Assembly (NCBI GenBank): GCA_937936785.1
Contig: CALDDQ010000014.1
Coordinates: forward strand, 1-64,000
Length of the DNA: 64,000 bases
Source: an uncultured Endomicrobiia bacterium
GTDB lineage: Bacteria > Elusimicrobiota > Endomicrobiia > DTEH01
Direction of reading: 5' to 3'
Part shown: one piece after another, positions 38,913 through 58,780 of the stretch
Layout of the letters: every line of letters begins with the position of its first letter
Numbering within the stretch: the first letter of the stretch is position 1
Position numbers and translations under genes: made by a program
The notes under the pieces: model-generated
Told to the model about the DNA's origin: nothing
Seen by the model: only the letters and a program-made list of their open reading frames with translations
The model's database searches: none

Positions 38913-38984
<72 letters not shown>

Positions 38985-39011: not shown

Positions 39012-39893
39012 ATGAATTTAAAGTATGCAGATCCAAAAATTTTAAAGCAAATTGATCAAATAATTTTTGAATCAAAACTTCCAGTAGAAGGAAATATTTC
39101 CGGAAAACACAAAAGTAATCTAATTGGTAAATCACTTGAATTTGTTCAACATAGAGAATATTTTCAAGGTGATGATTTAAAAACTATAGATTGGAAAGTT
39201 TATGCTCGCAGAGAAAAGTTTTATATAAAACAGTATCATCAAGAGACCAATTTAAACTGTTATTTTTTGTTAGATTGTTCAGAATCTATGTTTTTTAGAT
39301 ATAAAAATGAATTAACAAAATATGAATATGCAAATAATATGATATCTTATATAAGTTACATTTTATTAAGTCAAAATGATAATGTTGGATTAATAAAATA
39401 TGATAATAAAATACAACAAATAATTTTTCCTCGTTATGGGAAAGAATATTATTACAAAATATTAAATACTCTTGATGAAATTAATTTTAACCAAAAAACA
39501 GATTGGAGCAATCTTGCAGAAAATATCTTAAAATATATTAAAAAAAATTCATTGTTGATATTAATTTCAGATTTAATCTTTGAACAAAAAAAAGTTGTTA
39601 ATATATTGAAACAACTAAATTTCTCAGAAATAAATGTTTTGGTTTTACACATAATTGAACCAGTAGAAAAAAGTTTAGAATTAGGTAGTGAAAGAATCTT
39701 GTTTGAAGATTTGGAAAATAAAAATTTAAAAATAGAGTCTAATATTGAAGATATAAAAGAATTATACCAAAAAGAGTTTATTAAACGAATAGAATTTTTT
39801 AAAAAAGAGTTTAGTAATTCCAAAATTAAATACTATGAAATATATACTGATGTAAAAATAATAGAAAACTTAAAACTTGTATTGAACGAATAA
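39012..39893 (+). CDS. DUF58 (VWA-fold) protein
   Basis: KSLEFVQHREYFQGDDLKTIDWKVYARREKFYIKQYHQETNLNCYFLLDCSESM. Confidence 0.93.
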   Translation: MNLKYADPKILKQIDQIIFESKLPVEGNISGKHKSNLIGKSLEFVQHREYFQGDDLKTIDWKVYARREKFYIKQYHQETNLNCYFLLDCSESMFFRYKNELTKYEYANNMISYISYILLSQNDNVGLIKYDNKIQQIIFPRYGKEYYYKILNTLDEINFNQKTDWSNLAENILKYIKKNSLLILISDLIFEQKKVVNILKQLNFSEINVLVLHIIEPVEKSLELGSERILFEDLENKNLKIESNIEDIKELYQKEFIKRIEFFKKEFSNSKIKYYEIYTDVKIIENLKLVLNE

Positions 39894-39897
39894 TAAA

Positions 39898-41898
39898 ATG
39901 ATAAATTTTTATAATAATGTATTGTTATGGTTATTGCCATTGAGCATACTTCCTTTGGTATTACATTTGTTGTCTTTTAAAAAAAGTAAAAGATTACAAT
40001 TTAGTTATACTTTTTTAGTAGAAAAAGTTGTGCAGTCAAATTTAATAGAAAAAAAAATTGTAGATATTGTAGTTTTAATATTAAGATGTTTGATAATATT
40101 TTTTTTGATAATATATTTTGCAAGACCAGTTTTGTTTTATAATCCGTCTAATAAAAACAATATAAATTTAATTATAGCAATTGATTCTTCAATGTCAATG
40201 AGACAAAGAATGTTTAATGAAAGTAAATTTAAGTTTATAGTAGATGCTGTTGAAAAAAGTTTAAAATATTTTAGAGCAAAAAGAATAAAAGTTCACTTGA
40301 TTATGTTTGATGAGGAAATAAAAGTTTTGAACAAAAAGTTTGAATTTGTTGAGGAGATATCTTTTGATAAAAACAATTATTTCCCTTCATATAAATCAAC
40401 AGATGTAAATATGTTGTTGAACTATTCAATCAATATGTTTAATATGTATGGTGATGAATATCAAAATAAAGTGTTAATTTTTACTGATTTTGCAGAACAC
40501 GTTTTTGAAGATATAAAAAATAAAGAATTTGTAGAAAATAAATATGGCATAGATTTCTTGTTTTGTTATCCAGAGATTACAAATCAGAACGGGTATATAA
40601 AATCTGCTCAAGTAACATTAAAAAATAATTTGTTTAGTATAGAATTTTTTCCTTTGATACCTAAAGATAGTATACCTACAATAGCAAGATTTTTTATTGA
40701 AAATAAAATGGTAGATTCTGCTAATATAATTTTAGGAAAAGAAAAATATTCGTTTAATTATATTGTAGAACAAAAAACTAATAATATTGCAGGATATATA
40801 AGTTTGACACCAGATGCTTTAAATGAAGATAATAATTTTTATTTTACATATGCCGACTCTATGAATAAAAGTATACTGTGTATTGTTGATGAACCGTTTT
40901 ATTTAATGGGAATAAATAGTTTAAAATATTATTTTGAAAAATTAAATGTTTTAGGATATGAATTTAAAGTTATAAATTATGAAAAAGTTCAAGATGAAAA
41001 TAAAATTTTAGAAGAAAATGAAAATATAATTTTTGTTAATAACAAGCAGTTGTTAGGTTATGATAAAAACAAATTTTTTGATAAAAAAATGTTATTTTTT
41101 TGTGATACATCAGTTTCAGAAGAAAATTATGATAAATTTTTTGATGGTTTAGAGTTTATAGAAGAACAGGAAAATGTATATAACAATTATTATTTAGTTT
41201 TAGGTGATGATGAAGATTTTAACAATTTTGCTAAAAGTTTTAATTTAAAAAATGTTGAAGTTAAGAAAAAATATAAAGTTAATATAAACAAAAATTATGG
41301 TTGGAGAACGTTGTTGAAATTCAACGATGGCACGCCTGCCTTGTTGCAAAAAGAAAAAATGTATGTTTTTACATTTTCTGCAGATAGAGAATTAAGCAAC
41401 ATAATTTATAAACCTTTTTTTGTCAGTATAATAAAAAAATTGTTTGGTTCACAAGATCTAAACAATAATGGGTATAAAAACTATTATTTTGTATCGGAAA
41501 AGATTAATATAAAAAATGTGAAAAGTATATATTATGATAAAAATAATCCCATATTAGAAGAAGATAAATATTTTAAGATAACTCCTGAAAGTGTTACATT
41601 TTACAAACCTGGGTTTTATTATATTTTAGACATAGATAATAATGAAAGATGTGTTGCTGTAAACGCTATATTAAAAGAAAGTAATTTACAACTTTCTGAA
41701 AAAGATAAGGTTAGAAATAAGATGAAAAGTATAAAAAGGTCTACAATAAGTTTTTTAGATATAAGTAAATCAAATTATGAGAATGAGTTTATAAAATGGT
41801 GTTTTGGGAAAGAGTATTCAGATAATGTAGTATTATTAATAGCGATAATGTTTGTGTTGGAAACAATCTTGTCAAGAACAAGAAAAAGAATAATATGA
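39898..41898 (+). CDS. BatA-type membrane protein with VWA domain
   Basis: LLWLLPLSILPLVLHLLSFKKSKRLQFSYTFLVEKV; VWA MIDAS IAIDSSMSM. Confidence 0.87.
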   Translation: MINFYNNVLLWLLPLSILPLVLHLLSFKKSKRLQFSYTFLVEKVVQSNLIEKKIVDIVVLILRCLIIFFLIIYFARPVLFYNPSNKNNINLIIAIDSSMSMRQRMFNESKFKFIVDAVEKSLKYFRAKRIKVHLIMFDEEIKVLNKKFEFVEEISFDKNNYFPSYKSTDVNMLLNYSINMFNMYGDEYQNKVLIFTDFAEHVFEDIKNKEFVENKYGIDFLFCYPEITNQNGYIKSAQVTLKNNLFSIEFFPLIPKDSIPTIARFFIENKMVDSANIILGKEKYSFNYIVEQKTNNIAGYISLTPDALNEDNNFYFTYADSMNKSILCIVDEPFYLMGINSLKYYFEKLNVLGYEFKVINYEKVQDENKILEENENIIFVNNKQLLGYDKNKFFDKKMLFFCDTSVSEENYDKFFDGLEFIEEQENVYNNYYLVLGDDEDFNNFAKSFNLKNVEVKKKYKVNINKNYGWRTLLKFNDGTPALLQKEKMYVFTFSADRELSNIIYKPFFVSIIKKLFGSQDLNNNGYKNYYFVSEKINIKNVKSIYYDKNNPILEEDKYFKITPESVTFYKPGFYYILDIDNNERCVAVNAILKESNLQLSEKDKVRNKMKSIKRSTISFLDISKSNYENEFIKWCFGKEYSDNVVLLIAIMFVLETILSRTRKRII

Positions 41899-42638
41899 AA
41901 AAATTGTTTTATATAATATTGATAGAAATATTTTTTATATCTAATGCTTACATGTCAAATTTTAAATGGGTTCAACTTAAATATGAAGGTAATTGGGATC
42001 CAGTTCCAAATGTTTATATAGATGTGATAAACATTTTAACACTTACTACAAGTATAACTTGTGAAACTGAACGTGTTATAATAGATATTTCATCGCCAAA
42101 ATTTGCTTTTGAATTAAGCCAGAGTCCGTTTATAATAATTTTAGGTAATAATGAAATAAATTTAACAAAAGAACAAATAAATGTTTTAAGAAGTTATGTT
42201 ATAAATGGTGGAACAATTTTTGTTGAAGATGTCTCAGAACTTAGGTATAGTAAATTTGACACTTCAATAAAAAAGTTATTTAAAGAAATATTTCCTGAAT
42301 ATAAATTAAAAAAAACTGCTTCTGATAATGTTCTTATGAAATCATTTTATTTGTTAACACAAGTTACTGGCAGAATAATTCTTAATGATTATTTAGAATA
42401 CATTGAATATGAGAACCGTCCTGTAATAATTTATTCAAGAAACAATATGATTTCCTGTTGGGCCAGGGACCGTTTTGGTAAGTTTTTGTATGAATGTTTA
42501 CCTGGTGCAGAACAGCAAAGGTTTAATTCACAAAAGTTGTTTTTAAACATAATTATGTATTCTTTATGTGGAACATACAAATCTGACCAAGTTCATCAAC
42601 CATATATTGACCAAAGGTTAAAATTAAGAAAATGGTAG
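41895..42638 (+). CDS. DUF4159 family protein
   Basis: FKWVQLKYEGNWDPVPN...YVINGGTIFVEDV...LPGAEQQRFNSQKLFLNIIMYSLCGTYKSDQVHQPYI. Confidence 0.87.
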   Translation: MKKLFYIILIEIFFISNAYMSNFKWVQLKYEGNWDPVPNVYIDVINILTLTTSITCETERVIIDISSPKFAFELSQSPFIIILGNNEINLTKEQINVLRSYVINGGTIFVEDVSELRYSKFDTSIKKLFKEIFPEYKLKKTASDNVLMKSFYLLTQVTGRIILNDYLEYIEYENRPVIIYSRNNMISCWARDRFGKFLYECLPGAEQQRFNSQKLFLNIIMYSLCGTYKSDQVHQPYIDQRLKLRKW

Positions 42639-44755
42639 ATGTTAAAATTAATTTAATAGTAATAATATTTTTGTGCTTATTATTGATAACGTATTTTTTT
42701 TATTTGTTAAAAAATAAAAAACTTTATATATCAATATTTTTTAGAACAATATTATTTTTGATTTTAATAATATTGATGTTAAAAGTGTCATATAAAGTTT
42801 TAACTATAAATAAAAAGTTTGATGTAATATTCTTGATAGATAATTCTTACAGTATGACATTTAACCAACGATTGTCAAAAGTTAATACCTTTTTAGAAAA
42901 AAATTTTAAACAAATAGAAAAAAAAGCTAATGTTAAATATTTTGTTTTTAACGATGATGCACAAAAAATAGAAAAAAATGTTAAAATAGAAGTAACAAAA
43001 AAAAATACCAATATAAAGAAATCAATAGAAAATATTTTGTTTCAAAACAAAAATGTTGATGTCATAATTTTGTTTACAGATGGCAATGATATATATGAAA
43101 AATATCCTGATTTCACTGGCTATAAAACAGTAGTTTATCCAATAAATTTTAACGAAAATAATTTTAAAGATGTTGCAATAAAAGATTTACGATATAGTAC
43201 TTTAGGTTTTAAAGGTACAAATTATGAATTAACTTGTGTAATTCTTAATTATGGATATGATAATAAAAATATTCTTGTAACAATAGCTGATGAAAAAGAA
43301 GTTTTAGATACAAAAAGAATAAATTTAAAAAGTGGCAAAAACGAAGTAAAACTAAATTTTGTGCCTAAAGATGTAGGTAAAAAAAGATATTATGTAAAAA
43401 TAGAACATTTATTAGGTGAGGTGTCATACGAAAATAATAAAAAATATTTTGAATTAGAAGTTATAAAGGATAAAATTAGAATATTATACATTTGTGGTGA
43501 ACCATCTACAGAATATTATTTTTTACGTTCAATGTTAAAAAATGAACCGAATTTTGATTTAGTTTCTTTTGTTATTTTAAGAAATAATGATAGCCAGATA
43601 ATTGTACCTGATGAAGATTTATCTTTAATACCATTTCCGATTCATGATATTTTTGTAAAAGAATTAAACAATTACGATTTGTTACTATTAGAAAATTTTT
43701 CATACAAAAAATTTTCAATTCCGGTTCAATATCTTGAAAATATAAAAAGGTATGTTTCTACTGGTGGAGGATTTATAATGATAGGAGGAAAAAATTCTTT
43801 TTCTTTAGGTGGATATAAAAATACTCCTATAGAAGATATACTTCCTGTAGAGATTTATGAAAATGAAGAATTTGTGAAACAAGATTTTGTTCCTAAAGTT
43901 AATGATTATTTTGATCCATTGTTAAAAATATACGATAATTTAAAACATAATGAGTCTATATTAAAAAATATTCCTTCTTTAAAAAATTATAACAAGGTAG
44001 GATATAAACAAGGGTCTAAAGTAATTTTTTGGCACCCAGTAGATAAATTAGGCCAAAACTATGTGCCGATATCTTCTTACTGGAAATTTGATAAAGGGCG
44101 TGTGTTTACAATTTCTTCTGGCAATACCTGGAAATGGGTTTTAGAAAATATGTTATCAAAAAACTATGATTTTAAAAATATGTATGTTCAGTTTTGGAAG
44201 AATGTTATTTATTGGTGTGGAGGTATAACTGAGATAAAAAATATTCGAATATTGTTTGATAAAGAAAATATTGTAGTTGACGATAATATAAAAATTAGAA
44301 TAGTCATGTCCGGGAAACATACAATAGAACCAGAACTATATGTAACCTATCCAGATTTAACAAAAGTACGATTAAATATAAAAAAAATTTCATTGCAGGA
44401 ATATGTTTGTGAAATGAATTTTATGTCAAAAGGAAGATATGCATTTACAGCATTTTATAATGAAAATAATGTTGTTTATAGAGATGATAAAATTGTTTAT
44501 GTGCGAGAAAATATTTTTGATGAAATTGTAAATTTAAAGATTAATGAAGATTATTTGAATAAAATTGCTAATATTACAGGTGGTATGGTAATAAATTATG
44601 ATAATTTTGAGCTTGAAGAAATAATTGATCATACAAGAAAAAATAAAGGGAAAGAATATTCGTTAAATTATGAAATATATAATAACTTTTTAGTTGGTAT
44701 AGTGTTTATGCTGATTTTTATTTCTGAAATATTTTTTATGAGAAAATTTAGATGA
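42632..44755 (+). CDS. VWA domain membrane protein with glutamine-amidotransferase-like region
   Basis: FLIDNSYSM (DxSxS); ILYICGEPSTEYYFLRSML; NIKRYVSTGGGFIMIGGKNSFSLGGYKNTPIEDILPV; terminal TM helix. Confidence 0.82.
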   Translation: MVDVKINLIVIIFLCLLLITYFFYLLKNKKLYISIFFRTILFLILIILMLKVSYKVLTINKKFDVIFLIDNSYSMTFNQRLSKVNTFLEKNFKQIEKKANVKYFVFNDDAQKIEKNVKIEVTKKNTNIKKSIENILFQNKNVDVIILFTDGNDIYEKYPDFTGYKTVVYPINFNENNFKDVAIKDLRYSTLGFKGTNYELTCVILNYGYDNKNILVTIADEKEVLDTKRINLKSGKNEVKLNFVPKDVGKKRYYVKIEHLLGEVSYENNKKYFELEVIKDKIRILYICGEPSTEYYFLRSMLKNEPNFDLVSFVILRNNDSQIIVPDEDLSLIPFPIHDIFVKELNNYDLLLLENFSYKKFSIPVQYLENIKRYVSTGGGFIMIGGKNSFSLGGYKNTPIEDILPVEIYENEEFVKQDFVPKVNDYFDPLLKIYDNLKHNESILKNIPSLKNYNKVGYKQGSKVIFWHPVDKLGQNYVPISSYWKFDKGRVFTISSGNTWKWVLENMLSKNYDFKNMYVQFWKNVIYWCGGITEIKNIRILFDKENIVVDDNIKIRIVMSGKHTIEPELYVTYPDLTKVRLNIKKISLQEYVCEMNFMSKGRYAFTAFYNENNVVYRDDKIVYVRENIFDEIVNLKINEDYLNKIANITGGMVINYDNFELEEIIDHTRKNKGKEYSLNYEIYNNFLVGIVFMLIFISEIFFMRKFR

Positions 44756-46779
44756 ATAGTAAAATATTTATAATATCTATATTTTTTGTATTTTTAGTTT
44801 TATTATGGACTATGAGTCCCTATGTTAACAGTGGTGATAGTGGGGAATTTATAACAAATTCTATAATACTGGGCATAAACCACAGTCCTGGATATCCGTT
44901 ATATTCATTGATAGGAAAAATATTCTCAGTTTTAGTTCCTTACGGTAATTATGCTTACAAAATAAATTTTATGAACATTGTGTTTGTATTATTTATTATT
45001 TTGTTTATGTACTATTTTATAATTAGGTGTAATAATGAAAAAACAAACATAATTATTTGTTTAGTTTTATTGTTAGTGTTTATATTTTCTGAATCTTTTT
45101 GGCGCAATGCAGTTCAAACAGAAGTTTTTGTGCTAAACGTTTTGTTTGCTGCATTGATTTTTAATTTTTTAATTATAGAAAGAAGTATAATAAGATGGTA
45201 TTACATTTTTTTTATTTTTGCGTTAGGGTTAGGAAATCATCATACATTGATATTTTTATTTCCTGGAATATTTTATTTTTTTATAACAGATTATAAAATA
45301 ATTAAATCAAAGATTTTGTTAATAATAATTTTTTTTATTTTAGGATTTAGTGTATATTTGTTTTTACCTATTCGTGCATTAAAACAACCTGCGTTAAACT
45401 GGGGTGAAATAAATAGTTTTAGTAATTTTTATAATGTTATTACAAGAAAAGATTATGGCACTTTTCAGTTAACTGTTGATAAACCACTAAAAAGAGATTT
45501 TAAAAATACATATAATCAAATAAAACGGTATATAAAAAAAACTATAAAAGATTTATCGTGGATTGTAGTATTATTATATATTTTTAGTATATTTTTTCTA
45601 ATAAAAAAAGAACTAAATAATGCTATATTTTTAATGTTAAATTTATTTTTTTGTGGTTTAGGTTTTATTTTGTTTTCAAATTTATCATTTGATCAAATAA
45701 GTGATGGTATACTTGAACGTTTTTATATTTTACCAAATTTTATAATTGTAACAACAATATTTATGGGAATAAAGTATTTATATAAATATAAATTTTTTAT
45801 TGTCTCATTAACAATAATTGTTTTTGTTTTAAATTTAAAGACAAACTATACGAAATGTAATTATAGAGATTATTATTTAAATTACGATTATGGAATAAAT
45901 ATTTTAAGAACATTACCACAAAATAGTATCTTATTTATGGATGGTGGTGATGATACTTTTTATACTTTGGCTTATATGCAGTTTGTAGAAAGACGTCGTA
46001 AAGATGTGCTTTTACATGATCGTGGTGGACTTGTGTTTAGAAATATTTATGGGACAGATTTTCGCAATTTGTCAAAGGAAGAAAAAAATTTTCGTCGTGA
46101 ACAAGTAGAAAAAAGTTTTTATAACATAAGACCTGTATATTATTCCACTTTTAACAAAAAAATATTTCCTTCTGTAACATTAGTTAGATCTGGAATATTA
46201 TATAGTTATTATACAAAAAAGTATGGTGATATTAACAATGAATTATTAAATGAAATATATTCTCTTAGGTACATTAACATAGATTATCCTGATTATAGAA
46301 GCAATGCTTTGGTTCCAATATATTATTTTATGCAATCATTAGATACAAACGATATTGAAAAAAGTTATTTTTTATTAAAATATTGTATAACTCGTTGGTC
46401 GTATGTTGATTGGTTAAGAAATAATGTTTTGACTGAATTACATAATATTGCATATAAAAATTATACTGAAAATAATTATAATAGAAGTGTTGAAGTATAT
46501 AATATTATATTAAAATATAATCCAGAAGATGAGTATGCAATATTAAATTTAGGTGTTAGTTATGAGAAATTGTTGTTATATGATTTAGCAAAACAACAGT
46601 ATGAGAAGGTGATTTTGTTAAACAACAAAAATGTTAGTGCATATTATAATATGGCAGTTTTGTATTGGTATGAGAAAGATTGGAACAATTCAATAAAATA
46701 TTTTAATGAAGTGTTAAAGATTCAGCCTGACAATGAGTTAGTAAAAAAATATTTGTTAGAAGCCCAGAAAAAAATTTAA
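44752..46779 (+). CDS. DUF2723 membrane protein with C-terminal TPR repeats
   Basis: NSGDSGEFITNSIILGINHSPGYPLYSLIGKIFS; C-terminal AILNLGVSYEKLLLYDLAKQQYEKVILLN... Confidence 0.87.
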   Translation: MNSKIFIISIFFVFLVLLWTMSPYVNSGDSGEFITNSIILGINHSPGYPLYSLIGKIFSVLVPYGNYAYKINFMNIVFVLFIILFMYYFIIRCNNEKTNIIICLVLLLVFIFSESFWRNAVQTEVFVLNVLFAALIFNFLIIERSIIRWYYIFFIFALGLGNHHTLIFLFPGIFYFFITDYKIIKSKILLIIIFFILGFSVYLFLPIRALKQPALNWGEINSFSNFYNVITRKDYGTFQLTVDKPLKRDFKNTYNQIKRYIKKTIKDLSWIVVLLYIFSIFFLIKKELNNAIFLMLNLFFCGLGFILFSNLSFDQISDGILERFYILPNFIIVTTIFMGIKYLYKYKFFIVSLTIIVFVLNLKTNYTKCNYRDYYLNYDYGINILRTLPQNSILFMDGGDDTFYTLAYMQFVERRRKDVLLHDRGGLVFRNIYGTDFRNLSKEEKNFRREQVEKSFYNIRPVYYSTFNKKIFPSVTLVRSGILYSYYTKKYGDINNELLNEIYSLRYINIDYPDYRSNALVPIYYFMQSLDTNDIEKSYFLLKYCITRWSYVDWLRNNVLTELHNIAYKNYTENNYNRSVEVYNIILKYNPEDEYAILNLGVSYEKLLLYDLAKQQYEKVILLNNKNVSAYYNMAVLYWYEKDWNNSIKYFNEVLKIQPDNELVKKYLLEAQKKI

Positions 46780-46797
46780 AGTTAGTTTTAATTTGTT

Positions 46798-48939
46798 ATG
46801 AAATATTTATTTTTAATATTTAATGTCTTTGTTTTATATCTATATACATTATTTCCTACAGTAGCTCAGTATAGAGATGCAGGAGAAATGTCAGTCGTAG
46901 GAAAAATTCTTGGTATTGCACATCCACCAGGATATCCGTTGTATACGCTTATTTTAAACATATTCATAAGAATAGTTCCAATAGGTAATGTCGCATATAG
47001 AACAAATATTTTTTCTGCACTAATTTCTGCATTGAGTGTTGCAGTATTAGGTTTTCTGATAGAAAAAATGTTTATCGGAGAAGAGAAAAAATATTTTAAA
47101 ACAATGTCAATATATTTTTTTTGTTTAGTATTTGCTTTTGGATATTTACAATGGTATCTATCATTAGTTACTGAAATGTATACTTTTAACATATTTTTTG
47201 CTTTAGTAATTTTATACTTAGTATATAAAATAATCATAGGTAGTAGCATAAATATATTTTTGTTATTATTTATTTTTGGATTAGGCATAGGTAATAGGTT
47301 AGATTTAGTCCTATTTTCACCAATAATATTTTTTGTTTTAATTAAATATTTCAAGAATAAGAAGTTTTGTTTTAAAACTAACATTTTTTTATTGTTTATT
47401 GTATTTGTGAGTTTTTCAGGTTACTTATATCTTATAATAAGATCATCACAAGTACCACTAATTAACTGGAACGCTCCTTCAAAAATTGAAAATTTTATTT
47501 CTTCAATAATTAGAAAAACTCATGGTTCAACTTTAGATTTACTTTCGGTAAATTATAAAGAAGGAGAAAATTTTTTTCCTGGGGCGAAATTATATTTAAA
47601 TTACTTGATGAAAAACATCACTTTATTTGGCGTGATATTAGGTTTTTATGGTTTAGGTTTATTATATAAAAAAAATAAATTTTTTTGTATTTCATTATTT
47701 TTTAGTTGGCTAATAAGTAGTGTGTGGTTTATATATAAAGCAAACTTACCACCAAACCCACATGCTATGTCAATACTAGAAGCACATTTTTTGCTTGCAA
47801 ACAGTTTATTTTATACATTTTTTATATATGGCACGATATATTTTTTTAAAAATAAATACAGTGTAGTACTTTTGTTATTTTTAATTTTTTTAACTGGATA
47901 TAATTTAACAAATAATTGGAATAAATTAAACAAACGAGATAATTATTTTGCGTATGATTATGTATGGAACTTATTTAGGTGTTTGCCAGGAAATAGTTTG
48001 GTAGTTATTAGAGAAGATGTTCAGGTATTTTCTTGTTGGTATGGACAAATTGTGTGTAAAAAAAGGAATGATTTAAATATAATAGCGGAAGGATTGTCTG
48101 GTTCTATCTGGTATATGGAGATGTATAAAAAATATAAAACACAGAATATTTTTTTAACAAGACTTAATTATGAAACATGGCCAATATTTGTAAAAAACAA
48201 CTTTGATTTAGGAAATGATATTTATCTTACTTATGACATTGATTTTTTAGAATTAGAAAATTATAAAACTATACCATCAGGTTTATGTTCTAAAATAGTG
48301 AAAAGAAATAGTTTAATACAAATTGATAACAGATTCTTGTTAGATGATGTTATGTTTTATAGAAATGAATACATATATGATTTAGAAAAAGAATTTTTTT
48401 CATCAGATTTGGTAGAAGATTATACTAAGGCACGGCATAATCAAGCATATAATTTAATGATGATTGATAAAGATTACGATGCAATAAATGAATACAAAAA
48501 ATCTATGATATTAAATCCAGACTATCCGATGAATTATTTTTATATAGGATATACATATTATAAACTTAAAGATTATCTAAATGCAGAAAAATATTATTTC
48601 TTTTCAGTGAAAAAGTATGATTTATACTATAAATTAGCCAAAAAATATAATGCGTTGAATAATGTAGTTGAAAGTTTTAAATTACAACTTGCAAACGCAT
48701 ATTTAAATCTTGGTGTGGTTAATGAAAAATTAGGAAAAATAGATGATTCAATAAATAATTATAATAATGCTATAAAAATAAAACACGATTTTGCACAAGC
48801 GTATTATAATTTAGGTGTATCATATTGGCAAAAAAATGATTGGGATAAAGTAAAATATTATTTTGAAAAAGTTTTGTTTTATGATCCTAATAATCAACAA
48901 GTAAAATATTATTTAGAAAAAATTAAACGAAATGAATAA
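46798..48939 (+). CDS. DUF2723 membrane protein with C-terminal TPR repeats (paralogue of the preceding gene)
   Basis: QYRDAGEMSVVGKILGIAHPPGYPLYTLILNIF; C-terminal AYYNLGVSYWQKNDWDKVKYYFEKVLFYDP. Confidence 0.87.
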   Translation: MKYLFLIFNVFVLYLYTLFPTVAQYRDAGEMSVVGKILGIAHPPGYPLYTLILNIFIRIVPIGNVAYRTNIFSALISALSVAVLGFLIEKMFIGEEKKYFKTMSIYFFCLVFAFGYLQWYLSLVTEMYTFNIFFALVILYLVYKIIIGSSINIFLLLFIFGLGIGNRLDLVLFSPIIFFVLIKYFKNKKFCFKTNIFLLFIVFVSFSGYLYLIIRSSQVPLINWNAPSKIENFISSIIRKTHGSTLDLLSVNYKEGENFFPGAKLYLNYLMKNITLFGVILGFYGLGLLYKKNKFFCISLFFSWLISSVWFIYKANLPPNPHAMSILEAHFLLANSLFYTFFIYGTIYFFKNKYSVVLLLFLIFLTGYNLTNNWNKLNKRDNYFAYDYVWNLFRCLPGNSLVVIREDVQVFSCWYGQIVCKKRNDLNIIAEGLSGSIWYMEMYKKYKTQNIFLTRLNYETWPIFVKNNFDLGNDIYLTYDIDFLELENYKTIPSGLCSKIVKRNSLIQIDNRFLLDDVMFYRNEYIYDLEKEFFSSDLVEDYTKARHNQAYNLMMIDKDYDAINEYKKSMILNPDYPMNYFYIGYTYYKLKDYLNAEKYYFFSVKKYDLYYKLAKKYNALNNVVESFKLQLANAYLNLGVVNEKLGKIDDSINNYNNAIKIKHDFAQAYYNLGVSYWQKNDWDKVKYYFEKVLFYDPNNQQVKYYLEKIKRNE

Positions 48940-50626
48940 AAGTTTTTTTATAATTATATTTTTGTCAATAGTTATTTTGGTACACATATTCTTGTGTGAA
49001 AATGTTATTATAAATTTCTCACCGACATATGATGAACCTATACATTTGTTTCAAGGATATTCTTATTTAAAAACCGGATTATTACAAACAGTAGCACCTT
49101 ATGATCATCCTATGTTAGGAAAAATTATTTCAGCAATAGGGTTGTTATTATTAAGACCAAATCCTGTGGTATTTAATAATCATTCTACATGGTTAAATAG
49201 GCAGCGATATTCATTTGCAAATTTAATGTTATATTATAACAATAATGATGCGGAAAAAATGTTAAATATGGCAAGAAGAATGGTTGTATTAGTTTCTGTA
49301 ATTTTTATCATAACATTATTTTTTGTTGTAAGAAATACTTTGGGAACAATATCATCTTTTTTTGTAATTGTTTTATATTCATTTAATAATACAATTATTG
49401 CAAATGCAACACTTGTTACTCAAGATTTCATTTTTTCTGTATTTTATTTGTTAAGTGTATACTTTTTTTATTTATGGAGCAAGAAAAAAGACTTTATGAA
49501 CATAATTTTAACTGGAATATTTTTTTCTCTTGCAATGAATACAAAATTTAGTGGAATAATTTTAGTGGTAAGTTTTGCTATTAGTATTTTCTTTATGAAA
49601 ATAAAAAAAGAAATTAAAATGAAAGAAGTAATTTATTTTTTGTTTACAAATACAGTAATTTTTATATTGATTATATTACTAATATACGGAATTGATAATT
49701 TTATTTTATTTTTTGAATCATTATTTATTACATTAAAAAATCTGCAAGAAGGTAGATCAACATTTTTCTTAGGGCAATATTCAACGAAAGGGTTCTGGAA
49801 TTATTTTCTTGTATTAGTGCTTTTAAAAACAGAAATTCCGTTGTTATTAATTTTTTTGTATAGGGTTGTTTCAAGTATTATTTTTAAAAAAGAGCAAAAA
49901 AGTAGGTTAAACATAATTTTGTTGTTTAATATTATTCTAATATTGTTTTTAGCATCTTTTAGTAAAACTCAGATTGGGCAACGGCATTTGTTGCCGATGT
50001 ATTTTTTAGTTATATGGTTTGTCGGAAAAATTGTAAATGATAAAAAATTATTACCGTTGATTATAGGATTAACTTTATGGTATATTATAATTTCATTTAA
50101 AACTAACCCTTGGCATTTAAGTTATTTCAATGAATTTGTAGGTAATGAAAAAAAATTACATACGTATTTTACTGATTCAAATATTGATTGGGGACAAGGA
50201 TTAAAAAGTTTAGGAAAATGGGTCAAAGAAAATAAACAGATAGATAATAATGGTATTTATATGTCATATTTTGGTGTTGGAGATCCTAAATATTATGGGA
50301 TAAAGTATAGACCTATTGGATTTGTTACTAATTTAATTTTAGGAGAACGAGAAGGTGAAAATATTTTAAAGAATAGGCCAGAAAAAATCTATTTAGCGGT
50401 ATCATTAACAAATTTGCATTCTACATATTATCAAGATAAAACTATTTTTAATTTTTTGCATAATGTTGAACCATTAAAAGTTGTTGCAAAATCTATTTAT
50501 GTTTATGATATAAACAAAAGTGAAAATATAAGAAAAAATTTTATACAATTACTTAAAAAAATTAATTATGTTGAAGATATAAAATATTTTGAAACTATAG
50601 CAAGGAGAGAAAAATCAAATGAATAA
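48932..50626 (+). CDS. Membrane glycosyltransferase, GT39/ArnT-like
   Basis: FSPTYDEPIHLFQGYSYLKTGLLQTVAPYDHPMLGKIISAIGLLLL; multi-TM. Confidence 0.82.
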   Translation: MNKSFFIIIFLSIVILVHIFLCENVIINFSPTYDEPIHLFQGYSYLKTGLLQTVAPYDHPMLGKIISAIGLLLLRPNPVVFNNHSTWLNRQRYSFANLMLYYNNNDAEKMLNMARRMVVLVSVIFIITLFFVVRNTLGTISSFFVIVLYSFNNTIIANATLVTQDFIFSVFYLLSVYFFYLWSKKKDFMNIILTGIFFSLAMNTKFSGIILVVSFAISIFFMKIKKEIKMKEVIYFLFTNTVIFILIILLIYGIDNFILFFESLFITLKNLQEGRSTFFLGQYSTKGFWNYFLVLVLLKTEIPLLLIFLYRVVSSIIFKKEQKSRLNIILLFNIILILFLASFSKTQIGQRHLLPMYFLVIWFVGKIVNDKKLLPLIIGLTLWYIIISFKTNPWHLSYFNEFVGNEKKLHTYFTDSNIDWGQGLKSLGKWVKENKQIDNNGIYMSYFGVGDPKYYGIKYRPIGFVTNLILGEREGENILKNRPEKIYLAVSLTNLHSTYYQDKTIFNFLHNVEPLKVVAKSIYVYDINKSENIRKNFIQLLKKINYVEDIKYFETIARREKSNE

Positions 50627-51722
50627 AAAAATATTATTACTTACTGCTAGTTACGGCACTGGTCATATAACTGCAACGAAGTATGTGGAAAAAGCATTAA
50701 AACAAATCAGCCCAAGTTTAGATACAAGAATAGTAGATTTCTTACATTTAAAAGGAGAACAAAAAAAATTAACATTGTTTCAAAAGATGTACAACTATTC
50801 AATGGAAAGACCTGTTTTATGGGACAAATTTTTTGATTTTACTAATAACCGTTTTTCTACAAATTTGTTAAAACATTTTATTTTAAGAGGATATTATTCT
50901 ATAGCAAAAAAAATAATTTTAGAATTTAAACCAGATATTATTGTTGCTGCACATCCATATTGGAATTATATTGTAGAAAAATTTAAGAAAGAAATAAATA
51001 ATATTCCGTATATTTGTATTGTTACTGATTCTTATATGATTCACGATACATGGAAATACGGTAGTATTGATATTTATTGTGTTATTGATAACGATTCAAA
51101 AGATGTGTTGGAAAAAAGTGGATTAAAAAATGTTTATGTAACAGGTTTTCCAGTAAATCCAGATATAGAAAATCAAATAGATAGAAATAAAATTCTTAAA
51201 GAATTAAATTTAAATCCATCCTTAACAACGATACTCATAACCATAGGATTAGGTGCATTAGAAAGATTTATTGAAATAATTGATTATTTAAAAACAAAAA
51301 AAGGTGAGTTTCAACTAATATTAATTTCTGGCAAATACGACAACATTAATAGTATGTTAAAAGAAAAAAAATATGTTGTTCCAACAGCAATAATTGGTTG
51401 GACAAATAAAATGGCAGATTATATAAGATCTGCAGATTTGGTAATATGTAAAGCCGGTGGAGCAATAGTTTCTGAATCGTTAGCAGCAAAAAAACCTATT
51501 TTTATACCTGTATTTGTTCCTGGTCAGGAAAAAGGTAATGTTTATATAATACAAAAGTATCAGTTTGGTTTTTATGAAATAGGAAAAGAAAAGATATTTA
51601 ATATTCTTGATAGGATAATATCTAAAGAAATAAATTTAAATTTTTATAAAGAAAATATAGAAAAGTATACTAACAAAAATGCAGCAATAAATATTGCAAA
51701 ATTAATACTTCAAAAGATTTAA
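50619..51722 (+). CDS. MGDG synthase/UDP-glycosyltransferase family protein (GT28-like)
   Basis: KILLLTASYGTGHITATKYVEKAL...IVAAHPYWNYIVEKF...VTGFPVNPDIE...DLVICKAGGAIVSESLAAKKPIFIP. Confidence 0.9.
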   Translation: MNKKILLLTASYGTGHITATKYVEKALKQISPSLDTRIVDFLHLKGEQKKLTLFQKMYNYSMERPVLWDKFFDFTNNRFSTNLLKHFILRGYYSIAKKIILEFKPDIIVAAHPYWNYIVEKFKKEINNIPYICIVTDSYMIHDTWKYGSIDIYCVIDNDSKDVLEKSGLKNVYVTGFPVNPDIENQIDRNKILKELNLNPSLTTILITIGLGALERFIEIIDYLKTKKGEFQLILISGKYDNINSMLKEKKYVVPTAIIGWTNKMADYIRSADLVICKAGGAIVSESLAAKKPIFIPVFVPGQEKGNVYIIQKYQFGFYEIGKEKIFNILDRIISKEINLNFYKENIEKYTNKNAAINIAKLILQKI

Positions 51723-51727
51723 TAAAA

Positions 51728-54700
51728 ATGTTTATAAACAGTTACATAAAGAAAATAAAGTTTTATAAAAGATGTTTTTTGATAATACGGTATTTGTTGT
51801 TATGTATAAATTTATTAATAGGAAGTTTTGTTTTGAGCATGTTGTTTGATGAGATATTTCCACTTCCAATATATATATTTCATTTTTATTGGTTTATAAT
51901 TGTTTTTGTATTATTGATTTTTTTTGTATTTTTAGTTATTCGTTTAATACAGAATCAAAAAGATGTTTATAATATTATAACTTCAGCATTGGTAAAAAGA
52001 TATGTATCTGTTTCCAATGATGAAATATTTAATGCAGAACAGATTGAAAAATCATTAGAGATGGGGAATATAAACTATTCTTATGACTTAGCAACAGAAT
52101 TTGTTAAAAATGTAAAACAAAAATTGCAAACCGTAGATCCTAAAAAAGTTGTTGATTTTAATAGAATAATTAAGATTATTCCTTTGAATATTGTTCTAAT
52201 ATCTATAAGTTTTATATTATATTTTGTTCCACCGAATGTTTTAAAAGAAAATATATACAAAATATTGTTTACTCGTAAACCAGAGATACTAGGAATTTTT
52301 ATTTTTCCAAAAGATATAAAAATTCCGCAAAATAGTAGTTGTGAAATAAAAATTATAGTTGATAGAATTTATCAGATTTATAATCCATACCTTTTTATTA
52401 AGTATAAAAAATCAGATAAATGGTTAAAAGTTTCAGATATTATAGTACAAGATTTGCCAATAGGTAAGGTTTATAAATATAAAATAACAAATTTAACAAA
52501 CAAAATATTTTATAAAGTAAAATTTCGTGGTGTAGATACAAAAGTTTACACTATAAAACCTGTCACATATCCTATAATATCGGGTTTAAAAATAGAAGTA
52601 ATCATGCCGGGATATACAAAGATTGCTCCATTTTTTATTGAAAGTTTTAATGAAATAAAATATTTGTATGGAAGCAAATTAAATTTTAAAGCTTCGACGA
52701 ATAAAAATATTTTTGAAGCTAAAATGTGGTTTGAGGGAAGGTATCATAAATTAAATTTTGACAAAAAAAATAATTTTTATGGTAGTGTTGTATTAAAACA
52801 AGACACAGATTTATGGTTTGAGATTGTTGATGATAAAGGAGATAAAAATGATAATATAATAAAATACAGATTAAATATTATAAGAGATGAATATCCTTCA
52901 ATAGAACAAATTTCTCCTGAGGATAGTGTTGTTGTAGAAAAGAATAGTAAAATACCTATAATGTATAAAGTAAAAGATGATTATGGTATTTCAAAGATAG
53001 ATCTAGAGTTAACTTATGGTGGAGAAAAAATTATAATAAATTTAGCAAAATATACAAACATAATAAAAGAAGTGTTTGATGAGTATGTTTTAGATATTTC
53101 CAGTATAAAAATAAATTATGGTGAAGAAATCAGTTACAAAATAATAGCATATGACAATGATACAACATTTGGTCCGAAAAAAAATGAAACAGCAATTAAA
53201 AAAATTGAAATATTTAGTTTTGAAAAGAAACATAATTTTATAAAAGAACAGTTGAAAGATTTTGAAAAAAAAGTTTTAGATTTACTTTCAAAAGAGATAG
53301 AATTAAAAGAAAAAATAGATGGTTTAATTTCAACAAATAAAGATACTAAAAAAGAAAAAATATCTCTCTATAATGAGAAAAACAATTTTAATATAGACAT
53401 TAAAAATTTAAATATCAGGTTAAAAGATATTACTGCACAAATTATGACAGATCCATATTTTTCGGTAGGTACATATTTGGAACTAAAAAATTTGGAGAGT
53501 TCATTGGAAGGTATGTACAGTGAAATAAATCCACAAATATCTGAAAATATAAAAAATGAAGAATTTGTTTCAGCTTCAAATATTCAGCAGGAGGTTATAG
53601 ATACGTTGGAACGAATTGTTTCAATAAACGATCAGATAGTAAGAAAACAAAATATGTTAAATATTAACATCTTAAGTACTGATGCAAGAGATTTTACAAA
53701 AGATTTATTGTCAAGTTTAAATGAGATAAAAGATAAATTTACACAGGAGCAAAAAAATAAGTTGGAAAATATCTTGTCACAGATAAAAGATAGATTAGCA
53801 AAAATAAATTCTATGTTAAAAGATCATCAAGAAAAATTGTTACCTCAAGAGTTTATAAATAGAAGAGACATAAAAAATGTCGATATTTCAAACACACAAA
53901 ATTTGTTAGAAAATTTAACTTCAGCTATAAAAATGGCAGATATGGTTTCTGCATTAAGTTTTGCTCAGAGATTGTTAAAAGATTTAGAAGAAATGACAAA
54001 AATATTTGAAATTTCTAGTAATCAGATTTTGGTTTCAAAACAGAACGATTTTGAAGATGAACTAGGAAATTTAATTAAAGATATAGATAGTATTATATCA
54101 GAACAAGAAATAATATATTCTGAAGTTCAAAAAATGAACAAAGAAAAAATAAAAAAAATTTTAGAAAAACAGGAAAGTATGTTTGATCAAATAAGTGAAT
54201 TAGTAGAAAAAATTATAAAGAATATAAATGAATTTGATACAACCAATATTTTTGGTGGTTTAAATTTTAAATTTCAATATTTATCAAATCTTTACGAAGT
54301 GGATAAAAAAATTAAAAGTATAAAATCTGAGTTAGATAGAAAAATACTTATTAAAACAAAAGAACTGACAAAAGATTCTTTAGCAATATGGCAACGAAAT
54401 AATGCTTATATTTCGCAAATAGATGTTGTTACTTATGAAACCCTTGTTAACAAACATAATATGATAAATGAGAATTTGGTTCAGTTAGATAATTTATTAA
54501 ATAAAGAGTTTAATATTGAATATTCTCAATATGATCTTGATAATATTGAAAAAACAGTTTTAAAACAAAATTTGCTTGTAACAAAAGTTAAAAATTTTAC
54601 AAAATCTATAAAAACATTAGGTAAAAAAAGTTATTTAGTTTCACTAGAAAATATTCAAAATGCAAATAATGCTTATTTTAATATGAAAGAATCATCTAAA

Positions 54701-55033
54701 AACTTAATATTAAAACAACATATGGAATCTTTAAACCACCAAAAAATTGCGATTGATGAATTGAACAAAATTAGAGAAAAATTTTCATATAATAAAAACC
54801 AGTTCCAACAAATGAAAAATGGTTTTGTAAGACCAATGGCTGGTAAACAACAGTACAAAAATATGTCTACATCGATATACGAATATAATTTTGAACGCAT
54901 AACATTACCTTCAGCAAAAGATTATTCTGTCCCAAAAGAAATCAGGGAAGGAATAATAAAATCTTTGTCTGAAAATTATCCAAAACAAGACATTGAAGAA
55001 ATACAAAACTATTATAGGGAACTGTTGAGGTAG
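51728..55033 (+). CDS. DUF4175-like large membrane/coiled-coil protein
   Basis: Two N-terminal TM segments plus a third; LKIEVIMPGYTKIAPFFIESFNEIKYLYGSKLNFKAST; DEYPSIEQISPEDSVVVEKNSKIPIMYKVKDDYGISKIDLELTY; long coiled coil. Confidence 0.68.
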   Translation: MFINSYIKKIKFYKRCFLIIRYLLLCINLLIGSFVLSMLFDEIFPLPIYIFHFYWFIIVFVLLIFFVFLVIRLIQNQKDVYNIITSALVKRYVSVSNDEIFNAEQIEKSLEMGNINYSYDLATEFVKNVKQKLQTVDPKKVVDFNRIIKIIPLNIVLISISFILYFVPPNVLKENIYKILFTRKPEILGIFIFPKDIKIPQNSSCEIKIIVDRIYQIYNPYLFIKYKKSDKWLKVSDIIVQDLPIGKVYKYKITNLTNKIFYKVKFRGVDTKVYTIKPVTYPIISGLKIEVIMPGYTKIAPFFIESFNEIKYLYGSKLNFKASTNKNIFEAKMWFEGRYHKLNFDKKNNFYGSVVLKQDTDLWFEIVDDKGDKNDNIIKYRLNIIRDEYPSIEQISPEDSVVVEKNSKIPIMYKVKDDYGISKIDLELTYGGEKIIINLAKYTNIIKEVFDEYVLDISSIKINYGEEISYKIIAYDNDTTFGPKKNETAIKKIEIFSFEKKHNFIKEQLKDFEKKVLDLLSKEIELKEKIDGLISTNKDTKKEKISLYNEKNNFNIDIKNLNIRLKDITAQIMTDPYFSVGTYLELKNLESSLEGMYSEINPQISENIKNEEFVSASNIQQEVIDTLERIVSINDQIVRKQNMLNINILSTDARDFTKDLLSSLNEIKDKFTQEQKNKLENILSQIKDRLAKINSMLKDHQEKLLPQEFINRRDIKNVDISNTQNLLENLTSAIKMADMVSALSFAQRLLKDLEEMTKIFEISSNQILVSKQNDFEDELGNLIKDIDSIISEQEIIYSEVQKMNKEKIKKILEKQESMFDQISELVEKIIKNINEFDTTNIFGGLNFKFQYLSNLYEVDKKIKSIKSELDRKILIKTKELTKDSLAIWQRNNAYISQIDVVTYETLVNKHNMINENLVQLDNLLNKEFNIEYSQYDLDNIEKTVLKQNLLVTKVKNFTKSIKTLGKKSYLVSLENIQNANNAYFNMKESSKNLILKQHMESLNHQKIAIDELNKIREKFSYNKNQFQQMKNGFVRPMAGKQQYKNMSTSIYEYNFERITLPSAKDYSVPKEIREGIIKSLSENYPKQDIEEIQNYYRELLR

Positions 55034-55035
55034 AA

Positions 55036-56622
55036 ATGAAAAAAGTTTTAATTAGTATTTTATTTATTAATGTGCTATGTGGTTTATCATACACTTTTTT
55101 TGATACAAATGTTAAATATTTAGAGTCAGGAAATTTTAATGAAGTAAAAAAAAATATTGATAAAATAAAAAACCAAAAAGAAAAACAGTTCTATTATGGC
55201 ATTTTACAATTTTATTTGGGACAATATGATGAAGCAGTTGAAAGTGTTAGTATATATTCAGAATTGGAAATAAAAAATCAGCAGATAAAAAGTATAGTTG
55301 ATAATATACATGCAGTAAATGAAATATTAAAAAACGGATATGAAAAGTATGAATCTAAAAATTTTGTTGTTTATTTGAAAGGTAGAGATTTAATTTTAAA
55401 AGATAAAGTTCTTAGAGATTTAGAAAATATATATAAAGAATACGAAAAAATATTTGGTTATTCTCCAAGAGAAGAAAAAGTTAGAGTTGAGATTTATAAT
55501 ACCAAGAAAGAATTTGCCAGATGTTCTACTCTTGGTGAGGATATTGTAGATAAAACTGGTGTTGTCGGGATATGTAAGTATAATAGAATAATGTTACTTT
55601 CACCTGAAAATTTACCTTTTGGTTACAGATGGGTTGATACTCTTGCGCACGAGTATATCCATTTTATTTTAAATAGAATAACAGAATTTAATCTTCCGTT
55701 ATATCTTCATGAAGGGACAGCAAGATATTTTGATACAATGTATAGATCTTCTGTTTCATTAAGTATGACAATTGGAAACTTATCTAATTTATTAGATGCA
55801 AAAGAAAATGATAAAATAATTCATTTTGATAATTTTGTAGGTTCATTAGTGTATCTTGATTCTCAAGAACAGGTTACTTTAGCATTTAACCAGTTGTCAG
55901 ATTTTGTAGATTATTTGATATCAAACTATGGTGTGGATAAATACAAAGATTTTTTGTTTAGTTATAAAAATAAAACTTCAGGAAAAGAAAATTACTATAA
56001 AATTTTTTTAGAACATTTTGATGATATATATAAGAACTGGTTATTATCACTAGAAACAAAGAAAGATATTGTTAAAGATTATAAAGGGGCAAAGTCAGAT
56101 ATTAAATTTTTTGGAGAACAGGATATAAATAATTTAATAGGGCTTAACATTGAAGAATATATAAAACTCGGGGATAAATATTATAATATAAAAAATTATA
56201 AAATAGCTTTATATCAATATGAAAAAGCATTAAGTATAGAACCATATAATCCTGTAGTAATGACAAAAGTTGCAAGAGTAAATATGGAGATAAAAAAATA
56301 TTCTCAGGTGGAAAAAATTCTTTTAGATTGTATAAATATAAATCCAAACTATGTTTCTGCATATGAACTATTATTTGAATTTTATTATTTAAATGGACAA
56401 TTTGACAAAATTATAAAATTGTATGAAATTATTTTGGACATTAATCCATTTAATTATAATATAAGAAAAAAGATTGCTGAAGTTTATTCTGATTTGGGAA
56501 AGATCAATGCAGCAATAATAGAATATGAAATGGTTAAAATTTTGGTACCAGACGATGCAGAGGTGAACGAAAGGTTAAATTCTTTATTTGAATATATTAA
56601 AATAAAAGGAAATAAAAAATGA
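55036..56622 (+). CDS. Peptidase-MA-like (HExxH) protein with TPR repeats, exported
   Basis: Signal peptide; WVDTLAHEYIHFILNRITEFNLPLYLHEGTARYFD; C-terminal TPRs. Confidence 0.82.
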   Translation: MKKVLISILFINVLCGLSYTFFDTNVKYLESGNFNEVKKNIDKIKNQKEKQFYYGILQFYLGQYDEAVESVSIYSELEIKNQQIKSIVDNIHAVNEILKNGYEKYESKNFVVYLKGRDLILKDKVLRDLENIYKEYEKIFGYSPREEKVRVEIYNTKKEFARCSTLGEDIVDKTGVVGICKYNRIMLLSPENLPFGYRWVDTLAHEYIHFILNRITEFNLPLYLHEGTARYFDTMYRSSVSLSMTIGNLSNLLDAKENDKIIHFDNFVGSLVYLDSQEQVTLAFNQLSDFVDYLISNYGVDKYKDFLFSYKNKTSGKENYYKIFLEHFDDIYKNWLLSLETKKDIVKDYKGAKSDIKFFGEQDINNLIGLNIEEYIKLGDKYYNIKNYKIALYQYEKALSIEPYNPVVMTKVARVNMEIKKYSQVEKILLDCININPNYVSAYELLFEFYYLNGQFDKIIKLYEIILDINPFNYNIRKKIAEVYSDLGKINAAIIEYEMVKILVPDDAEVNERLNSLFEYIKIKGNKK

Positions 56623-57278
56623 GTTTTGTTGATAAAAAAGAAATAAGATGTGTTTGTGGAAAAATTTTTAGTTCGAGGATAGTGATTACAGTTAATGTGG
56701 GACAGGATGAGTTTTATAAAGAAGTTATTTTAAATGGGCAATTTAATATAGTTCAGTGTCCAGAGTGTAAGAAAATGCTGTATGTAGAAGTTCCATTTTT
56801 TTATTTAGAACCTGCTGAAAGTATTGTTATATATGTTTTCCCAAAAAGTTATGAACAAGAAAAAGAAAAATATATTTCACAAGCAAATGATAACTTCAAA
56901 TTAGCAATTAGTTCCATAGAAGAAATTGAAAACAAACCACAAGAATATTTTTTAAAAGTAATGTTTGGAATTGAAGAACTGGTGGATTTTCTTTTATTAC
57001 AAAAAGAAGAAAGAGAAGAGATGGACTTATTGTTACAGATTGCAAAAGATATGGAATTGAAAATTATAGAATTACCTGCTGGTAAAGCGAAACAAAAAAG
57101 TTTTATATCTAAACTTCCTTCAGTTAACAAACCAATTTTTGATGATGTGTTAATTGGTTTAGAAAGAGTTGTTAAAAAATATTCGCAATTAAAAATTTAT
57201 AAAAGTTTGTTAGATAAAATAAACTCAGATAAAATATTTAAACAAGAATTGAAAGAATTAATAGAATTAGTTAAGTAA
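56619..57278 (+). CDS. CpXC domain protein
   Basis: EIRCVCGKIFSSRIVITVNVGQDEFYKEVILNGQFNIVQCPECKKMLYVEVPFFYLE. Confidence 0.82.
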   Translation: MSFVDKKEIRCVCGKIFSSRIVITVNVGQDEFYKEVILNGQFNIVQCPECKKMLYVEVPFFYLEPAESIVIYVFPKSYEQEKEKYISQANDNFKLAISSIEEIENKPQEYFLKVMFGIEELVDFLLLQKEEREEMDLLLQIAKDMELKIIELPAGKAKQKSFISKLPSVNKPIFDDVLIGLERVVKKYSQLKIYKSLLDKINSDKIFKQELKELIELVK

Positions 57279-57292
57279 TAAAAACTGAAAAT

Positions 57293-58780
57293 ATGAAGAA
57301 AGAAACTTATTATAAAATAAGAAAGAAAAATATTATTTCTAAAGATAAATTATTACAACTTCATAATGATTTTATGCCTGAATTTTGTGAAGATACTATT
57401 AAAAATATTTGGTATAAACACGGATATAAGAATGAATCTTTAAGAACTACTGATGGTAAAAAAGTTATAGTATTAAATGCTGGAGAATACAATCCTGTTG
57501 ATGGACCAGATTTTGTTAATGCAAAAATTATAGTTGATGGCAAAGAATTAAATGGCAAAGTGGAAGTACATTTAAAAAGATCTGATTGGATTAAACATAA
57601 ACATATTGATAATCCTAAATACAAAGATACCATAATGCATGTGTTTTTTGAAGATGACATAGATAAAATAAACTATAATATAGATGAACTTTGTTTAAAA
57701 GATAAAATTGATGATAAATTTATAGAAGAGTTAGACATTGTTAACAACAAGTATGTGCATAGAAAAAATAATTTGTGTGGAAAAAGTTTGTTTCATAAAG
57801 ACTATAATTATTTAGAGGAAATTTTAATTGCAAGTGCAGAAGTTAGGTTAAATATTAAGTCAGAACAATTTGCTCTATGGTTTTATGACAAGTTGAGAGA
57901 GGAACAGTTGTTATATGAACGTATTGCAGAAGTTTATGGATATATGAAAAATAGAGAAAATTTTATGCTTTTAGCGAGGTTATTACCACTGAAAAAAATT
58001 AGAAAATTTGTGAAACAGTATTCTGTAGGAGAACAAAAAAAAGTTATAGAGACAATATTTTTTGGAGTTAGTGGTTTTTTGGATGGAGAAAAATTTAATT
58101 CTGAAAATGATTATTGGCTAAGATTAAAAGATAATTGGGAGAAATCGTTAAAAAAATATTTTAAAAAAACTGTAGATAAAACAAAATGGAATTATTATAA
58201 AACAATGCCAACAAGTTATCCTGAAAGAAAAATATATGCTTTGTCAAAGTTTGTGTCACAATTTGTTAATATACATATAAATCAACATTTATTAAATACA
58301 ATTTTATTACACAACGAAAGTGAAGTTTTAAAACATTACATAAACATTTTTTACCAACCTGCGGAAGATTTTTTTGCTAATAAGGCAAGTTTTGATTCAA
58401 AAGATTTTGGTATAAAAATGCCATTGTTTAGTAAAGAAAAAACTTATGTTATGTTAATAAATGTTATTTTCCCTTATTTGATATATAAATCAAAAAGTGA
58501 TGATACAAAGAAAATTTATGATAAAGTAATGAAAATATACAAATCAATAAATTATTGTGAAAAAAATAAAATTGTAAAAGATTTTATTAGTAAACTAATT
58601 ATATATCCTGAATATAGAAAATATTTTGAATCAAAATTAATGTTTTCACAAGGAATTATACAATTATACAAAGATTTTTGTTATCCTAATAAAGGTGAGT
58701 GTAAATATTGTAAGTTGCCGGAAGTGTTTAAATATAAACCTAATGATTCAACGGATAATTTTGAATTTATAAGATTATGA
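57293..58780 (+). CDS. DUF2851 family protein
   Basis: VLNAGEYNPVDGPDFVNAKIIVDGKELNGKVEVHLKRSDWIKHKHIDNPKYKDTIMHVFFEDD; C-terminal CYPNKGECKYC. Confidence 0.88.
   Translation: MKKETYYKIRKKNIISKDKLLQLHNDFMPEFCEDTIKNIWYKHGYKNESLRTTDGKKVIVLNAGEYNPVDGPDFVNAKIIVDGKELNGKVEVHLKRSDWIKHKHIDNPKYKDTIMHVFFEDDIDKINYNIDELCLKDKIDDKFIEELDIVNNKYVHRKNNLCGKSLFHKDYNYLEEILIASAEVRLNIKSEQFALWFYDKLREEQLLYERIAEVYGYMKNRENFMLLARLLPLKKIRKFVKQYSVGEQKKVIETIFFGVSGFLDGEKFNSENDYWLRLKDNWEKSLKKYFKKTVDKTKWNYYKTMPTSYPERKIYALSKFVSQFVNIHINQHLLNTILLHNESEVLKHYINIFYQPAEDFFANKASFDSKDFGIKMPLFSKEKTYVMLINVIFPYLIYKSKSDDTKKIYDKVMKIYKSINYCEKNKIVKDFISKLIIYPEYRKYFESKLMFSQGIIQLYKDFCYPNKGECKYCKLPEVFKYKPNDSTDNFEFIRL

Follow-up and report, generated by a model that had tools for sequence, protein, structure and literature searches.

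The RL3499-RL3502 operon of Rhizobium leguminosarum encodes DUF58 and BatA/DUF4159-type membrane proteins. The study of this operon is reportedly that of Vanderlinde et al. (2011, J Bacteriol 193:2684). The operon is headed by RL3499, a MoxR of the MRP subfamily (PMC3893208), and a further source describes it as conserved, with mutation altering cell morphology and envelope integrity (PMC5700661). MoxR, DUF58 and membrane-anchored VWA proteins are also encoded by the Bacteroides aerotolerance (bat) operon, and the NorQ/NorD, CbbQ/CbbO and RavA/ViaA systems pair a MoxR hexamer with an adaptor that has a VWA domain. NorQ, for instance, engages a finger in the VWA domain of NorD, with the ATPase gripping and twisting the adaptor (PMC13036017), and the inner membrane is where RavA/ViaA act (PMC9489729).

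The window analysed here is a stretch of 64,000 nucleotides from contig C14. The draft genome to which it belongs (class Endomicrobiia, phylum Elusimicrobiota) measures 1.56 Mb, with about 4% of the genome absent from the assembly. The DUF58 locus of the window, referred to as locus B (DUF58b), is by description akin to RL3499-RL3502 as a MoxR-headed DUF58/BatA/DUF4159-type operon, but differs in that moxR is unlinked in the order of the window genome, and in that BatA and DUF4159 are separate genes. It resembles the bat operon in its MoxR, DUF58 and VWA components, but has neither BatD nor the bat TPR genes, carrying DUF4159, VWA-GATase and DUF4175 instead; a Pfam search found no BatD among the window genes. 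The NorQ/NorD, CbbQ/CbbO and RavA/ViaA pairs, in contrast, are usually linked, and the targets of NorQD and CbbQO are known.

Locus B is very probably a MoxR/DUF58/VWA envelope operon of the DUF4159 type, served in trans by an AAA+ ATPase gene elsewhere in the genome, a reading based on gene content, orthology, synteny, phyletic co-occurrence and conserved motifs. A preliminary description of this DNA had called the locus MoxR-less and under-described. The first reading is corrected here, and the absent ATPase is named. The second holds for the DUF4159 variant, which occurs widely across Elusimicrobiota and Firestonebacteria and is hardly described under that name (no mention of DUF4159 was found in the literature searched), but not for the MoxR/DUF58/VWA type of envelope operon, which has already been described. 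The kind of system is known, and it is the order-wide split of the ATPase gene that looks lineage-specific and unusual, the system itself looking ordinary.

Gene content of locus B

The locus begins an unbroken run of plus-strand genes, with neighbours that either overlap or are separated by a few bases (Table 1), and tight packing extends beyond the last gene listed, to about position 59994. The gene positions given earlier were sound, with all ORFs lying at or within them, and the order characteristic of the DUF4159-type operon (DUF58, BatA-type VWA, DUF4159, VWA-GATase) is present. Pfam likewise confirmed the assignments of DUF58, BatA, DUF4159 and VWA. In the case of DUF4175, the match in the window is weak, with PF13779 just passing the gathering score (28.4 against a 27.3-bit cut-off) in a partial match of 136 residues; all six aligned homologues match the same family, with a best E value of 6.6e-23. 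In NCBIfam, none of the DUF58, DUF4159, VWA-GATase and DUF4175 proteins matched a specific family. The locus had also been described as encoding three tandem MIDAS proteins. The three motifs are present, with the D and both S residues invariant, but the genes are not strictly in tandem, as DUF4159 separates the second and third VWA genes, and four more genes lie between the third and DUF4175.

Table 1. Features of locus B and of the region immediately upstream
Feature	Position	Strand	Evidence and remarks
motB	38228-38893		ORF upstream of tRNA-Gly; name from reading the ORF
tRNA-Gly (CCC)	38913..38984	+	ARAGORN; 27 bp before DUF58; outside the system
DUF58 (VWA-fold) protein, 293 aa, no TM	39012..39893	+	PF01882, E 1.9e-36
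BatA-type protein, 666 aa	39898..41898	+	PF07584 and PF13519 (VWA); TIGR02226
DUF4159 protein, 247 aa	41895..42638	+	PF13709, E 1.1e-25
VWA and GATase1-like membrane protein (VWA-GATase), 707 aa	42632..44755	+	PF07090, E 2.7e-14; VWA match weak
TMEM260-like (DUF2723) glycosyltransferase-type membrane protein with TPR	44752..46779	+	PF11028, E 7.4e-27
Second TMEM260-like membrane protein with TPR	46798..48939	+	PF11028, E 1.3e-22
PMT_2-type glycosyltransferase	48932..50626	+	PF13231, E 4.5e-11
MGDG-synthase/MurG-like glycosyltransferase	50619..51722	+	PF06925 and PF04101
DUF4175-type membrane protein	51728..55033	+	PF13779, marginal match
Peptidase-MA-like domain and TPR, exported	55036..56622	+	Peptidase_MA_2 below cut-off; TM/signal at 4-22
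ORF of 219 aa, two CxxC-type motifs (CpXC-like by eye)	56619..57278	+	Overlaps preceding gene

For the downstream genes, the first TMEM260-like gene is syntenic in most relatives, as is the Peptidase-MA/TPR gene in relatives, and a homologue of the 219-aa ORF follows DUF4175 and the Peptidase-MA gene in one relative (G008). The glycosyltransferase-type genes that trail the locus in most relatives point to work on envelope glycans or lipids.

The slot upstream of DUF58

Profiles for MoxR (PF07726) and AAA_5 (PF07728) had no match in the window, which for these two families agrees with the earlier statement that it holds no AAA+ gene, and motB and tRNA-Gly do, as had been noted, fill the slot where relatives carry moxR. 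The order of the window genome is represented here by five genomes of one family, and in none of the five does moxR lie directly 5' of DUF58. The slots upstream of DUF58b in this order are occupied by unrelated genes that differ by genome, with one sister pair sharing them; a tRNA-Gly was found at the slot in none of the four relatives within the order, and is particular to the window genome. No promoter-like match was found in the 27-bp gap between the tRNA-Gly and DUF58, and locus B may thus be co-transcribed with tRNA-Gly(CCC).

The five genomes are all drafts, of 25 to about 240 contigs, and a moxR that truly adjoins DUF58 might have been misplaced in assembly. The probability of such an error is negligible, since a single contig of the window genome runs unbroken across the slot and carries motB and tRNA-Gly immediately before DUF58, and five independent assemblies put MoxR elsewhere, in the same new context; with the five assemblies concordant, an artefact was rejected as the cause of the absence. 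The position of moxR upstream of DUF58 is treated here as a typical, non-essential arrangement, and its loss as a change in gene arrangement, not in kind.

An ortholog of the operon-heading MoxR on another contig

Searching the whole genome revealed two MoxR genes, on contigs C5 and C6, together with two DUF58 loci, on C14 (locus B) and C2 (locus A, DUF58a), a result that speaks against a MoxR-less system. The C2 locus has the make-up of a canonical bat operon: DUF58, a pair of VWA proteins, TPR and BatD. The C6 gene (MoxR-B, positions 57897-58895 of that contig) matches PF07726 with an E value of 7.9e-63, as well as AAA_lid_2. A maximum-likelihood tree of 29 MoxRs resolved two clades, supported at 100/100 each, with the C6 gene among the MoxRs of locus B and the C5 gene (MoxR-A) among those of locus A, so that the C6 gene is orthologous to the MoxR found at the head of locus B elsewhere. 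The preliminary description had proposed that the ATPase must be elsewhere or that the system works without it; the ortholog on C6 upholds the first branch, and the lack of a MoxR is not a property of the system.

Gene order in relatives is likewise at odds with a MoxR-less system, as all of those outside the order have MoxR immediately before DUF58; synteny of this kind is what the preliminary description had named as refuting its reading. In the other families of Endomicrobiia examined, each DUF58 is preceded directly by a MoxR, and MoxR-B stands directly before DUF58b in 11 genomes from six of these families. Among 23 named loci, which reach into Firestonebacteria and several of which come from the same genomes as the 11, a script placed MoxR upstream of DUF58 in 22; the 23rd (L103) was recognised by hand, having been missed because the DUF58 start is over-called into moxR. 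In one of the 11 (G011), a 477-aa ORF lies between moxR and DUF58. A 477-aa ORF inserted at this place (L062:3803-5236; also L099) is by eye like a Schlafen/AlbA_2-type ATP-binding regulator.

Detachment of both MoxR genes

Throughout the order (five genomes), MoxR-B is detached from locus B and has the same neighbours, argS/rsfS on one side and a PAP2 gene on the other. MoxR-A is likewise detached from the bat operon in all five, and is found beside GNAT-like and aminotransferase-like genes (the names of these neighbours, PAP2 excepted, were assigned by eye). Both MoxR-DUF58 pairs are thus split in 5/5 genomes of the order, and adjacent in the other families examined. The simplest account is a single ancestral relocation of each MoxR gene, in which the operon-heading moxR of locus B would have moved, in the ancestor of the order, downstream of rsfS-argS and next to the PAP2 gene.

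The arrangement at the MoxR-B site is proA-nadD-LCP-rsfS-argS-MoxR-B (L004, L073). Elsewhere (L083, L086, L087) the same neighbourhood houses the bat-A operon, in the arrangement proA-MoxR-A-DUF58a ... nadD-LCP. As the new neighbourhood of MoxR-B is the site of the bat-A operon in other families, the relocations of MoxR-A and MoxR-B may be linked.

Probable partnership of MoxR-B and locus B

Locus B could instead work without an ATPase, with DUF58 and the VWA proteins acting independently and MoxR-B re-employed near argS and PAP2. Such a loss of partnership would agree with the detachment of both MoxRs into new neighbourhoods that are each conserved in 5/5 genomes of the order, and with the short gap before DUF58, where no shared control is visible given the lack of a promoter-like match. 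It is nonetheless improbable, because MoxR-B is kept in all five genomes with its motifs intact (Walker A/B, sensor 1 and GxxPRA), because DUF58b retains its invariant MIDAS residues in the order, and because MoxR-B in this class is present only where locus B is present. Of 60 genomes searched, 16 carry a MoxR with 56% or higher identity to the C6 gene, and these are exactly the genomes with locus B genes and a readable upstream region. In a further DUF4159 genome (G013, 79% complete), a contig end interrupts the locus ahead of DUF58. Where locus B is missing, the search gave only MoxR-A types (42-50% identity over the full length) or partial pieces. Family f3, which is the largest in the class and includes many reduced genomes, has neither locus B nor MoxR-B but mostly keeps the bat operon, and the smallest genomes lack both. 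The co-occurrence reflects few independent losses, with most of the genomes that lack locus B belonging to one family.

A different possibility is that the bat-operon ATPase, MoxR-A, works for locus A and locus B alike, or that mixed hexamers of MoxR-A and MoxR-B form. With both MoxRs unlinked from their own operons in the order, pairing is no longer enforced by genetic linkage, and MoxR-A and MoxR-B are about 46-49% identical. Within the order, where cognate and non-cognate distance correlations are not separated (10 pairs), MoxR-A distances fit DUF58b about equally (0.77 against 0.68). Across 13 genomes, however, it is the cognate pairs that correlate best, with a value of 0.93 for MoxR-B and DUF58b versus 0.82 for MoxR-A, and every genome of the order keeps two distinct orthologous types, making this possibility very unlikely. 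It is also distinctly improbable that the uncoupling of both MoxRs has turned dedicated ATPase-adaptor pairs into a shared ATPase pool for the two envelope systems, with mixed hexamers or exchangeable partners.

These comparisons support, short of proof, the reading that the detached MoxR-B would still serve locus B in trans. The order provides a natural case in which a MoxR and its DUF58 partner are apparently retained together by function, without linkage, and this retention makes the pairing of the two MoxR paralogues with the two DUF58 proteins testable.

Protein features and a proposed mechanism

The MIDAS motifs of the three VWA proteins are DCSES in DUF58 (residues 88-92), DSSMS in the BatA-type protein (96-100) and DNSYS in VWA-GATase (70-74), and the D, both S residues and a later D are invariant in 14-15 homologues of each. 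In DUF58 the invariant positions are D88/S90/S92 and S186-D187, and in VWA-GATase D70/S72/S74, T126 and D150. DUF58b is predicted to be a cytosolic adaptor of MoxR. The BatA-type and VWA-GATase proteins each have two N-terminal and one C-terminal TM segments in a TM scan, and the positive charges that follow the first TM segment suggest that their VWA domains are outside the inner membrane.

The structural model of the BatA-type protein (pLDDT 79.9) has a VWA domain, beta domains and a mixed alpha/beta domain. A whole-chain fold search with this model returned VWA domains only, including BatB (3ibs) and a BF aerotolerance protein (4jdu), at a whole-chain rmsd near 19 that is uninformative on domains other than VWA. 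The BatA-type families (PF07584, PF13519) are matched by 15/15 homologues and PF07090 by 2/15, which weakly suggests a GATase-like C-terminal half. For VWA-GATase, the profile matches GATase1-like structures (3soz, 2gk3, 3rht) and a VWA structure (5a8j). The DUF4159 profile matches a solved structure (4i66, E 7.7e-46), and this protein is probably periplasmic, with a probable signal peptide recognised by eye. The DUF4175 protein has three N-terminal TM segments in a TM scan, and its model (pLDDT 77.2) shows an Ig-like beta region at residues 190-495 and a long helical/coiled-coil region at 498-1032.

For the topology, physical partnerships and envelope function of locus B, we infer the following scheme. 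By analogy with NorQ/NorD and RavA/ViaA, a hexamer of MoxR-B in the cytosol would dock on DUF58, a VWA protein, and, with ATP, would remodel, assemble or mature a complex that the BatA-type and VWA-GATase proteins form in the inner membrane. This complex would have its VWA and GATase-like domains on the periplasmic side, as would DUF4159 and the coiled coil of DUF4175, and the complex may support envelope integrity, a role suggested by the rhizobial and bat operons.

In three loci (L103, L107 and L108), the BatA-type and DUF4159 genes are apparently fused into a single ORF of 922-944 aa, an arrangement that lends support to a direct partnership of the two proteins.
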